64,000 nucleotides of DNA from Candidatus Jettenia sp. AMX2 (GTDB lineage: Bacteria; Planctomycetota; Brocadiia; Brocadiales; Brocadiaceae): the NCBI GenBank assembly GCA_030583665.1, contig CP129469.1, positions 1,603,043 through 1,667,042 on the forward strand. Direction: 5' to 3'. The position numbers and the translations under genes are program-made. The notes below the pieces were generated by a model, which saw only the letters and a list, made by a program, of their open reading frames with translations, did not search any database and was not told where the DNA came from. This document shows positions 2,193 to 29,148 of the stretch, in pieces. Numbering within the stretch: the stretch's first letter is position 1; each line of letters begins with the position of its first letter.

Positions 2193-3098
2193 ATGTTCAA
2201 ACCAGCTTATATAAATCTGTACCGGACGGGTAAACTTGACGAGAGGGTCGAAAGTGCCCGGAAATTATTAAAAGAGTGCCAGATATGTCCGAGACGATGC
2301 AAGGTCAACCGGCTTGAAAATAAATCAGGTATTTGTAAGGTGGGCAGATTGCCAAAGGTTTCGAGTTATAATCCGCACTTTGGAGAAGAATCTCCATTGG
2401 TTGGCATGCATGGTTCAGGAACTATCTTTATTACTTCGTGTAATTTGGGCTGCGTATTCTGTCAAAATTATGATATCAGCCATCTGGGAGAAGGATACGA
2501 AGTTTCTTTCGAACGATTCGCACAAATGATGATCGAATTACAGAATATGGATTGTCACAATATTAATTTTGTTACCCCTACCCATGTTGTACCCCAGATA
2601 CTCGAAGCACTTCCCATTGCCATCAGGGGAGGTTTAAAGATACCACTGGTCTATAACACCGGTGGTTATGATCTCGTGGAAACCTTGCAATTACTGGATG
2701 GAATTTTCGACATTTACATGCCCGATTTTAAATTCTCCGATAATGATACTGCAGCCAGATTGTGCAGGGCAGAGGACTATCCCGAAGTAGCCATGAAGGC
2801 TATTAAGGAGATGCACAGACAGGTAGGCGACCTTGTTATAAACGAACGTGGTATTGCAGAAAGAGGGCTGATCGTCCGGCATCTTGTTATGCCCAATGAA
2901 TTAGCCGGAACATGCAAGGTTATGCAGTTTCTGGCCGGGGAAATCTCACGAAATACCTATGTTAATATCATGGATCAATATTATCCCTGTGGTCTTGCCC
3001 GCCAATATCCGGAAATCAACCGCCGGATCACCGCTGAAGAATTTGAGTATGCCCTCCGGATCGCGCATGAAGAAGGTATCCGCAGGTTAGCTGATTAA
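2193..3098 (+). CDS. Radical SAM protein of the PflX/COG1313 family
   Basis: A 301-residue radical SAM enzyme. The [4Fe-4S]/SAM motif CX3CX2C is at C83-C87-C90 (CNLGCVFCQNY). An N-terminal four-cysteine segment (C29, C32, C36, C48: CQICPRRCKVNR...GICKVG) is typical of this family and probably binds an additional metal centre. Family members resemble pyruvate formate-lyase activating enzymes but their substrate is unknown; the name PflX is historical. The start is uncertain: the upstream spacer is AT-rich with no strong Shine-Dalgarno sequence. The gene stands alone, about 150 bp after a rhodanese remnant and convergent with an ATPase pseudogene. Confidence 0.85.
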   Translation: MFKPAYINLYRTGKLDERVESARKLLKECQICPRRCKVNRLENKSGICKVGRLPKVSSYNPHFGEESPLVGMHGSGTIFITSCNLGCVFCQNYDISHLGEGYEVSFERFAQMMIELQNMDCHNINFVTPTHVVPQILEALPIAIRGGLKIPLVYNTGGYDLVETLQLLDGIFDIYMPDFKFSDNDTAARLCRAEDYPEVAMKAIKEMHRQVGDLVINERGIAERGLIVRHLVMPNELAGTCKVMQFLAGEISRNTYVNIMDQYYPCGLARQYPEINRRITAEEFEYALRIAHEEGIRRLAD

Positions 3099-26443: not shown

Positions 26444-27457
26444 ATGAAAGAGGCAATGTTTTTTGAAAAGCTCGGGGATAAAAGGGTAAGGTGCTATCTT
26501 TGCCGTCATCATTGCGTTATCGGAGAGGGAAAGAAAGGGATATGCCGCGTAAGGGAAAACCGTGGAGGGACGCTATACTCGCTCGTTTACAGAAAGCTTA
26601 TTTCAGAACATATTGACCCTATTGAAAAAAAGCCCCTTTTTCATTTCTATCCCGGCACCACATCGTTTTCTGTGGCAACAGTCGGATGCAATTTCCGTTG
26701 TTTAAACTGCCAGAACTATGAAATATCACAACTGCCTGCGGATTCTGAGCAGATCGCCGGCAGTGATATTGAACCCGAAAAGATTGTTGAGGATGCCCTG
26801 AATTCCCGTTGTAAAAGTATCGCCTATACCTACACCGAACCAACAATATTTTTTGAATATGCCTATGATATTGCGAAACAAGCGGATATCCGCTCAATAA
26901 AAAACGTATTTGTAACGAATGGATACATAACCCGCGAGGCATTAGCAACAATACGGCCATATCTTCACGCTGCAAATATTGATTTAAAAAGTTTTTCTCC
27001 TGAAACGTACAGGCAACTATCCGGCGCACGCCTGGAACAGGTTTTAGACTGCATCCGTTCTTACCGGGAGATGGGAATCTGGATAGAAATAACCACACTG
27101 ATTATTCCGGAGGTTAACGATTCCGCATCCGAATTGAGACAGATTGCCGGATTTATAAAGGACACAGGACCCGGCATACCGTGGCATATAAGCCGTTTTT
27201 ATCCGGCATACCGGCTTCTGGAAAAACCACCAACGCCGTTAAATACCCTTAAAATGGCGCGTGAGATCGGACTGGAGGCCGGCCTGAGATATATTTATAT
27301 AGGGAATGTGCACAGCGAGGAAGGAGAAAATACCTGTTGTTATAACTGCCACAAAGTCCTTATTAAAAGATATAATTATCAGATTATTGAGAATAACATC
27401 ATAAATTCACAATGTCCGGCATGTAAGACACCCATTGACGGATGTTTTGAAGTTTAA
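26444..27457 (+). CDS. AmmeMemoRadiSam-system radical SAM enzyme
   Basis: 337 residues. Radical SAM motif CX3CX2C at C82-C86-C89 (CNFRCLNCQNY). The N-terminus has CYLCRHHC (C17, C20, C24) and GIC (C34), and the C-terminus has CCYNCHKV and CPAC cysteine pairs, which probably bind further metal ions. This is the PflA-like COG1180 family that often occurs with AMMECR1 and Memo proteins; neither partner is in the window. The substrate is unknown. It is followed after 31 bp by a universal stress protein gene, so the two may be co-transcribed, and a glycyl-radical-like protein lies 1.1 kb on. Confidence 0.88.
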   Translation: MKEAMFFEKLGDKRVRCYLCRHHCVIGEGKKGICRVRENRGGTLYSLVYRKLISEHIDPIEKKPLFHFYPGTTSFSVATVGCNFRCLNCQNYEISQLPADSEQIAGSDIEPEKIVEDALNSRCKSIAYTYTEPTIFFEYAYDIAKQADIRSIKNVFVTNGYITREALATIRPYLHAANIDLKSFSPETYRQLSGARLEQVLDCIRSYREMGIWIEITTLIIPEVNDSASELRQIAGFIKDTGPGIPWHISRFYPAYRLLEKPPTPLNTLKMAREIGLEAGLRYIYIGNVHSEEGENTCCYNCHKVLIKRYNYQIIENNIINSQCPACKTPIDGCFEV

Positions 27458-27488: not shown

Positions 27489-27953
27489 ATGATTGTACTA
27501 AAAAAGATATTATGCCCTGTAGACCACTCTGAATGTTCATACCTTGCTTTAAAATATGCCATCTCCCTCTCACTGAAAGACGAGGCCAAATTATATCTGA
27601 TGCACGTGATTGATTCACGTTTTTTTGAAATGGAGACATACAAACTCAGTCCCTATAACATCAGTGAATCCGAGCTGGCAAAAATCCATTCTGATTTAAT
27701 GAAGAGTTTACCGGAAGGGACAACCGACCTGTTAGAGGTAGAGACTATTGTAGTAAAAGGAGTGCCGTTTAATGAGATACTGAACACTTCTCAGGAAGTA
27801 GGGGCAGATATTATCGTGATGGGTACGCATGGAAGGACGGGACTTTCCCACGTCATGATGGGGAGTGTTGCTGAAAAGGTTGTACGCAAGTCCGCTTGTC
27901 CTGTACTGACGGTAAGGATGCCTGCACCACCGGTAATACCCCTTTCAGGTTAA
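27489..27953 (+). CDS. Universal stress protein (UspA family)
   Basis: 154 residues from the ATG at 27489, which has TGGAG six bases upstream. A Rossmann-like domain with the ATP-binding G-2X-G-9X-G(S) pattern in MGTHGRTGLSHVMMGSVAEK near the C-terminus. A longer open frame from 27435 overlaps the radical SAM stop and is not supported. A paralogue with the same motif is at 63.4 kb. Confidence 0.88.
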   Translation: MIVLKKILCPVDHSECSYLALKYAISLSLKDEAKLYLMHVIDSRFFEMETYKLSPYNISESELAKIHSDLMKSLPEGTTDLLEVETIVVKGVPFNEILNTSQEVGADIIVMGTHGRTGLSHVMMGSVAEKVVRKSACPVLTVRMPAPPVIPLSG

Positions 27954-28508: not shown

Positions 28509-28595
28509 TAGACTTCTTCCTTTATAAACAAAAAGCCATTGCAGCGTGGACACCGCAATGGCTTTGTAACCGGATTCTTCGGGGAAGAAGTCTGT
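28509..28595 (-). terminator. Nested hairpin terminator downstream of the glycyl-radical-like gene
   Basis: The inner stem, read on the minus strand, is AAGCCATTGCGGTG / CGCTGCAATGGCTTTTTG (28531-28566) followed by a T-rich tract. An outer inverted repeat AGACTTCTTCC / GGAAGAAGTCT encloses it (28509-28518 and 28583-28593). It lies right after the stop codon at 28604. Confidence 0.75.
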
Positions 28596-28603
28596 CTTTT
28601 TTC

Positions 28604-29017
28604 CTAAACAGAATACCTTCCCATGTGCCTGTCATGTAACTCCCCTACCTTTGATTTATTCCAGTTTGATACCCTGCTATAATAGCCTACGATCCGGGTA
28701 ACTCCATGGAGACGCAGAGACGTTCCCGTTTCGAGTGCATGTATAACAGCACCTAAATCCTGTCTGAGTACTGCATCAATACTGACAGAAAAGGCACATT
28801 CTAATTTGTGATTTATAATCTTGAGTAAATGTTCCTGCGGTGTGTCCCCGTCAATATCCCCATCTATCTCCAAAAAAACATGACCCTCAACAGCAGCATC
28901 AAATGCCCTTAATTTTTCTTCAATAAAAGACTGAATATCTCCATGGCTGCCGTATGTTCCATTCACTTTCCTGCTCATAACACCTGCCACAGAGTTTTCC
29001 AATGTTACAATCGCCAT
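28604..29017 (-). CDS. Small protein with a C-terminal NrdD-like glycyl-radical segment
   Basis: 137 residues starting at the ATG at 29017, supported by AAAGGAGGG eight bases upstream. The C-terminal 32 residues (VTRIVGYYSRVSNWNKSKVG then ELHDRHMGRY) closely resemble the end of anaerobic ribonucleotide reductase NrdD, where the glycine of R(V/I)xGY is the radical site; G111 is the equivalent here. The N-terminal 100 residues are unlike NrdD. They contain an acidic stretch (LEIDGDIDGDTP) and predicted helices, and match no family I know. By analogy with the autonomous glycyl radical cofactor GrcA this could be a spare-part or carrier protein. That role is a hypothesis. Confidence 0.6.
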   Translation of the reverse strand: MAIVTLENSVAGVMSRKVNGTYGSHGDIQSFIEEKLRAFDAAVEGHVFLEIDGDIDGDTPQEHLLKIINHKLECAFSVSIDAVLRQDLGAVIHALETGTSLRLHGVTRIVGYYSRVSNWNKSKVGELHDRHMGRYSV

Positions 29018-29148
29018 TACTTTAAACCCTCCTTTCAAGAATGATTTTTAAACTATCCCGATATCACTAATACTTTTGCAACATCCCTGTCTATCACTTT
29101 ACAACTTCCCCTTCTATCACCTCCTTTGCATAATGTTAAAATCGCCCG

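Follow-up and report, generated by a model that had tools for sequence, protein, structure and literature searches.

A stand-alone NrdD-type glycyl-radical protein of anammox bacteria and phages, a probable in-trans subunit of class III ribonucleotide reductase

A stretch of 64,000 nucleotides from the genome of Candidatus Jettenia sp. AMX2 (GCA_030583665.1, contig CP129469.1, positions 1,603,043 to 1,667,042; the whole stretch is called the window) carries a small minus-strand gene whose product ends like NrdD, the class III ribonucleotide reductase. The host genome is a single 3.46-Mb contig. A sequence-only reading of the window had described this product as a stand-alone protein with an NrdD-type glycyl-radical tail and a new N-terminal domain (N-domain), with a spare-part role comparable to that of GrcA for pyruvate formate-lyase. 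Here we analyzed the protein, its homologues in cells and phages, and the NrdD proteins of the same genomes.

The small gene, its tail and its N-domain

The gene and the features recognized in and around it are listed in Table 1.

Table 1 Features of the small gene and its surroundings in the window
Feature	Position	Strand	Description and basis
Stand-alone glycyl-radical protein gene	28604..29017	-	137 amino acids (aa), stop codon included; open reading frame (ORF) with ATG at 29017 and stop at 28604; homologues in 56/59 genomes of the order
NrdD-type glycyl-radical tail, residues 104-137, HGVTRIVGYYSRVSNWNKSKVGELHDRHMGRYSV	28607..28708	-	PF13597 positions 534-560; invariant residues
Gly111 codon, expected radical residue	28685..28687	-	aligns with the glycine of the NrdD RIVGYF loop; invariant in 70 homologues
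N-domain, residues 25-100, putative docking domain	28718..28945	-	helix - three strands - two helices; AlphaFold2 models; no family match
Shine-Dalgarno sequence AAGGAGGG	29027..29034	-	nine bases 5' of the ATG; read from sequence
Inverted repeat AAAGCCATTGC / GCAATGGCTTT	28531..28565		between convergent genes, possible terminator; read from sequence
Universal stress protein gene	27498..27953	+	convergent with the small gene
AmmeMemoRadiSam gene	26444..27457		second radical SAM gene; TIGR04337
Radical SAM-like protein gene	2193..3098	+	301 aa; below every NCBIfam cut-off

The tail announced by the sequence-only reading is present, and profile searches place it at the extreme C-terminus of NrdD. 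Pfam NRDD (PF13597) aligned with residues 104-131 only, at the very end of the profile (534-560 of 562 positions; E 4.1e-5), with a score of 22.9 bits that lies slightly under the cut-off of 26.2 bits. TIGR02487 matched residues 103-131 (E 3.6e-4). When the homologues were aligned, residues T107, R108, V110, G111, Y112, N118, W119 and N120 were kept in 38 of 38 cellular proteins and in all 70 when viral proteins were included. The match is not due to chance because these residues are invariant. Conservation of glycine 111, on which the earlier claim had been made to depend, is thus complete. Residues 104-131 also carry the NrdD loop R-[IV]-V-G-Y followed by NWN..K..EL.DR. Only these 28 residues out of 137 aa align with NrdD, at a score under the Pfam cut-off, and the protein has neither the catalytic barrel with its finger-loop cysteine nor the zinc Cys4 site that precedes the glycine loop (it has a single cysteine and no Cys pairs). 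A PF01228-type glycyl-radical domain was not matched in the Pfam scan.

No Pfam or NCBIfam family matched residues 1-100, and no recognizable similarity to NrdD was observed there, as was expected of a domain of new type that is not an ordinary piece of NrdD. Two AlphaFold2 models gave an ordered domain (mean predicted local distance difference test of 83-96 per ten-residue block over residues 31-100), and the tail ends in a helix. Convincing structural matches were not found in PDB, the best being weak in both Foldseek (E 0.2 and 0.32) and VIA-align (Z 4.3 and 4.2), which does not imply that the fold is new. Across lineages the tail is 72-78 % identical, and the N-domain only 16-20 %; such fast sequence change would fit a docking surface that tracks its partner. 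A viral predicted structure of 163 aa (A0A5Q2WAZ7; 34 % identity, E 1.8e-6) is probably a phage homologue of the small protein, and it was not traceable in the annotated phage collection.

Occurrence in anammox bacteria, other planctomycetes and phages

Most of the comparison genomes were metagenome assemblies, and presence of the small protein was scored from profile matches. The close relatives of the window's organism are anammox bacteria (Jettenia, Loosdrechtia, Brocadia and Scalindua), and the profile matched in 57 of the 59 sampled genomes of their order; G181, whose sole match is an NrdD tail, was left out of the 56 counted in Table 1. In the phylum-wide sample, the small protein was observed in families f1 (the window's family), f2, f3, f4 and f32, and a short candidate ORF lies close to the end of a contig in G275. 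Planctomycetaceae-type metagenome-assembled genomes (MAGs) have a shorter version (about 105 aa). Save for a few incomplete assemblies, genomes with the small protein also encode NrdD. Plasmids yielded no small-protein homologue.

When viral contigs were scanned, 70 loci with 51 distinct tail ORFs were obtained. Two of the 51 (L282 and L283) are tails of NrdD split in cis. The remaining proteins, about 49, stand alone; they measure roughly 90-170 aa and vary in the N-domain, and for a few of them the start is uncertain. A motif search did not recognize NrdD in the fetched flanks of the stand-alone loci. Two contigs were checked in detail using PHROGs: the gene lies amid phage structural genes in both, those for major head and tail proteins in L249 and for terminase and portal in L258. 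PHROGs gave no convincing family for the small protein itself. Phage-type transposition proteins are carried by L215, and the viral record L216 shares its copy with the second copy of Brocadia sapporoensis.

Second copies of the small gene were seen in genomes of the window's family (L170/L208 and L216, L171, L172 and L173), one being identical to that of the viral record L216. A 625-aa ORF in L172 (4-1878) resembles the terminase large subunit, as judged by eye only. Another homologue, L016, is found in an apparent other phylum (G311), where NrdD belongs to a different type and has its glycine intact; L016 is possibly a phage contig within the G311 bin.

NrdD in genomes that carry the small protein

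NrdD of the window's genome has 813 aa, is full length with an intact tail (GISRIVGYFSRINNWNKSKIGELADRH) and is encoded between an NrdR-like gene and NrdG2, about 1.27 Mb from the small gene and unlinked to it. Neither a class I or II reductase (PF02867) nor a PF01228-type glycyl-radical enzyme was found in this genome, which leaves NrdD as the one reductase and the one candidate partner found there. All NrdD tails compared in f1 are intact but one, and the glycine is retained in Jettenia ecosi and Brocadia sapporoensis. The exception is G157 (loop RIGDYF), with aspartate at the glycine position. Since NrdD of this family keeps its own radical glycine, the small protein would be a spare part there.

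A different pattern was observed in sister lineages. The radical motif is intact in 38 of the 68 NrdD proteins compared and lost in 30. For 26 of these 30, the genome also carries the small protein; the remainder consists of G100, G294 and two f16 homologues. In f2, f3, f4, f70 and f32, the zinc cysteines are kept and the radical loop has decayed (e.g. CSYCDASNLYSIKRSASQDRVNNWDMTKMQELVNRH in f3 and SSNSCCSKKVNLW in f4). Among the named genomes with a glycine-less NrdD are those of Scalindua sediminis, S. arabica and S. rubra, together with several Planctomycetaceae MAGs. Parsimony on the NrdD tree requires at least five changes, gain and loss being indistinguishable by count, and the loss of the glycine is therefore probably repeated. 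An independent-pairs test on the same tree stayed below significance, the pairs being too few.

Outside f16, the glycine-less proteins do not look dead. The finger-loop motif L[SA]ACCRLR is present in 28/28 of them, and the ratio of non-synonymous to synonymous substitution rates (dN/dS) of the nrdD core is 0.02-0.08 in glycine-less pairs (f3 and f2) versus 0.02-0.04 in intact relatives, the range of strong purifying selection. NrdG2 adjoins or lies near the glycine-less nrdD in the four lineages checked (f2, f3, f4 and f32). The glycine loop and next helix share 80 % identity among intact NrdD of distant lineages (core 70 %), and only 22-36 % between glycine-less NrdD and intact NrdD from genomes without the small protein (core 68-69 %). 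It would seem that selection for the radical loop has shifted from NrdD to the small protein. In f16, by contrast, the radical glycine (RIADYF) and the finger-loop cysteine are both gone from full-length NrdD relatives (L120/L196 of G045 and L121/L197 of G008); these dead-looking proteins are probably non-reductases.

Class I/II reductases were not found in nine f32-type genomes, in both f4 genomes or in the f3 genomes G227, G235, G263 and G271 (93-95 % completeness). For most f32-type genomes, no reductase other than the glycine-less NrdD was found; one of the nine, G322, has an additional NrdD that is cis-split and belongs to another type, and the search for NrdD found none in G320 (f32-type) or G263. 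Many f2 and f3 genomes carry a class I/II-type reductase as well. Every cell needs a supply of deoxyribonucleotides. Because of this need and the missing class I/II reductases, the glycine-less NrdD and the small protein most likely form a working enzyme in most genomes without class I/II; the assemblies are incomplete, and many genomes agree.

The surroundings of the small gene differ between lineages. The position of the convergent universal stress protein gene is kept in 14/14 Brocadia-type loci compared. In Scalindua-type genomes (L019, L021, L022, L025, L026, L031, L033 and L034), the small gene follows GroEL-, Hsp20- and Lon-like ORFs, a stress cluster, and the neighbours there also include a BadF-like ATPase ORF (names read from sequence).

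Proposed role of the small protein

We consider it very likely, from these sequence comparisons, that the small protein is a glycyl-radical subunit acting in trans on NrdD. NrdG, the radical S-adenosylmethionine (SAM) activase, would form the radical on Gly111. The N-domain would dock the small protein on NrdD with the loop inserted beside the catalytic cysteine, whose hydrogen would then pass to the glycyl radical and start nucleotide reduction. Oxygen cuts glycyl-radical enzymes at the radical glycine. In the window's organism, the small protein would most likely be a spare part that rescues an NrdD whose backbone has been cut there, like GrcA/YfiD. An NrdD that has lost the glycine, as in Scalindua-type lineages and some others among the planctomycetes, would depend on the small protein, which appears to be an obligatory subunit there. 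The copies of phages would probably keep the host NrdD running during infection. Somewhat less firmly, we regard it as likely that class III ribonucleotide reductase can be an obligatory two-part enzyme, with the radical on a separate exchangeable subunit of which phages bring their own copy for the host's enzyme.

Several observations weigh against this proposal. G100 (96 % complete) and G294 (77 %) have a glycine-less NrdD and no small protein was detected in them, and two f2 NrdD proteins have a glycine at the aligned site in a loop that is otherwise decayed. NrdD of the window's genome is intact, so that the role there is deduced from relatives, and its gene is far from the small gene. The AlphaFold2 models predict the radical loop with low to middling confidence, and the bulk of the comparison rests on metagenome assemblies.

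Other explanations were also considered. The small protein may be a regulator of NrdG, with an NrdD-mimicking tail that occupies the activase and limits radical formation. The tail is indeed close to that of NrdD, and the intact NrdD of the window's family leaves something to regulate. However, a decoy could do without an invariant radical glycine, and it would remain unexplained why NrdD could lose its glycine, with the catalytic motif kept, where the small protein is present; we think this very improbable. It is very improbable that the small protein carries its radical for a different, unrecognized enzyme and that the decay of NrdD in sister lineages is unrelated. The N-domain without a known family would suit such an enzyme, as would the fact that a physical link to NrdD is only deduced, but no other glycyl-radical enzyme of the PF01228 type was found in the window's genome, NrdD is encoded wherever the small protein is, with the few exceptions given above, and most f32-type genomes have the glycine-less NrdD as their sole reductase found. 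Hardly any weight is given to a third possibility, in which the glycine-less NrdD proteins are dead enzymes being lost and the small protein is the remnant of a tail. A truly dead-looking relative does exist in the phylum (G008 and G045), and many f2 and f3 genomes have a class I/II-type reductase besides. Against this stand the low core dN/dS, the intact finger loop, the kept NrdG, the f32, f4 and several f3 genomes in which no other reductase was found, and the phages, which are not expected to retain a leftover.

The activase was the point on which the sequence-only reading did not hold. It had proposed two PflA-like radical SAM genes of the window as possible activases, the second of them only about 1.1 kb from the small gene. 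The distance is right, and the genes are syntenic throughout the window's own family. However, the product of this nearer gene is an AmmeMemoRadiSam enzyme (TIGR04337, 348 bits against a cut-off of 220), and the other gene passes no activase cut-off (best NrdG2, 24 bits versus 131). The AmmeMemoRadiSam gene is linked to the small gene in Brocadia-type loci only, and Scalindua-type neighbourhoods have other neighbours in its place. NrdG2, in turn, adjoins nrdD, including glycine-less nrdD. We therefore rejected both neighbouring genes, and it is most unlikely that either is the activase.

The small protein was also compared with known systems. GrcA/YfiD of E. coli and Y06I of phage T4 are likewise stand-alone proteins in which the C-terminal glycyl-radical segment of an enzyme is joined to an extra N-terminal part, and they too are found in cells and phage (PMC8683613). 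T4 encodes Y06I for pyruvate formate-lyase (PMC8683613), a parallel to the phage copies here. In addition, GrcA supports E. coli PflB G734A, a variant without its own radical glycine (PMC12338860); working with such an enzyme is a further likeness (PMC8683613, PMC12338860), and it is a direct precedent for an essential role in the glycine-less lineages. As with GrcA, the protein is small, stands alone and is encoded apart from its presumed enzyme, and its expected radical glycine (G111) is invariant. GrcA differs in its pyruvate formate-lyase-type tail (PF01228, not found here), in the enzyme it serves and in its disordered N-terminal half, in place of which the small protein has a predicted folded domain. 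We know of no lineage that depends on GrcA. With NrdD itself (PF13597, TIGR02487) the small protein shares the last ~30 residues, the radical glycine loop and next helix; the barrel, finger-loop cysteine and zinc site are missing and the N-domain is unrelated. The class II reductase NrdJa/NrdJb is also a two-chain ribonucleotide reductase (PMC9669993), but it is an adenosylcobalamin enzyme without a glycyl radical.

Cis-split NrdD (G311 phylum, viral L282 and L283) resembles the small protein in having the glycine tail on a separate polypeptide. Its tail ORF (45-79 aa) comes immediately after nrdD and lacks an additional domain, whereas the small gene is unlinked, encodes a predicted folded N-domain and occurs also in genomes with an intact NrdD; a tail ORF adjoining a truncated nrdD is not what the window's genome has, its NrdD being full length and ~1.27 Mb away. 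In the G311 phylum, whose genomes are small (0.5-1.4 Mb), NrdD is often divided between a long ORF without the glycine tail and a close ORF of that size, with a motif like CEVYSRVVGYIRPVxQWNxGK (L285, L287, L289-L292, L294-L297, L299-L301 and L303). By its sequence this is a natural cis-split class III reductase, and the open-access literature gave no report of it. Further NrdD proteins split from a small adjacent tail ORF were seen on the viral contigs L282 and L283 and in L122 (G021:C42) and L201 (G322:C81).

In 2021, GrcA/YfiD and Y06I were the only validated spare parts, both for pyruvate formate-lyase, and the authors raised possible spare parts for other glycyl-radical enzymes (PMC8683613). 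Open-access literature on spare parts, in-trans glycyl radicals, planctomycete NrdD, split NrdD and anammox reductases contained nothing on the small protein. The GrcA-like role suggested by the sequence-only reading is supported by the invariant Gly111 and the non-NrdD N-domain, and is extended by the glycine-less NrdD lineages and the phage copies. The small protein looks like the first spare part for NrdD and, in some species, like an obligatory subunit. It is a strong candidate spare part for ribonucleotide reductase, the maker of DNA precursors, and the lineages in which NrdD has already lost the glycine offer a natural experiment in which the mechanism is directly testable. An NrdD annotation should thus not be taken to mean a self-sufficient enzyme, and the proposed role would bear on the survival of anammox bacteria in oxygen and on the control of nucleotide supply by phages.
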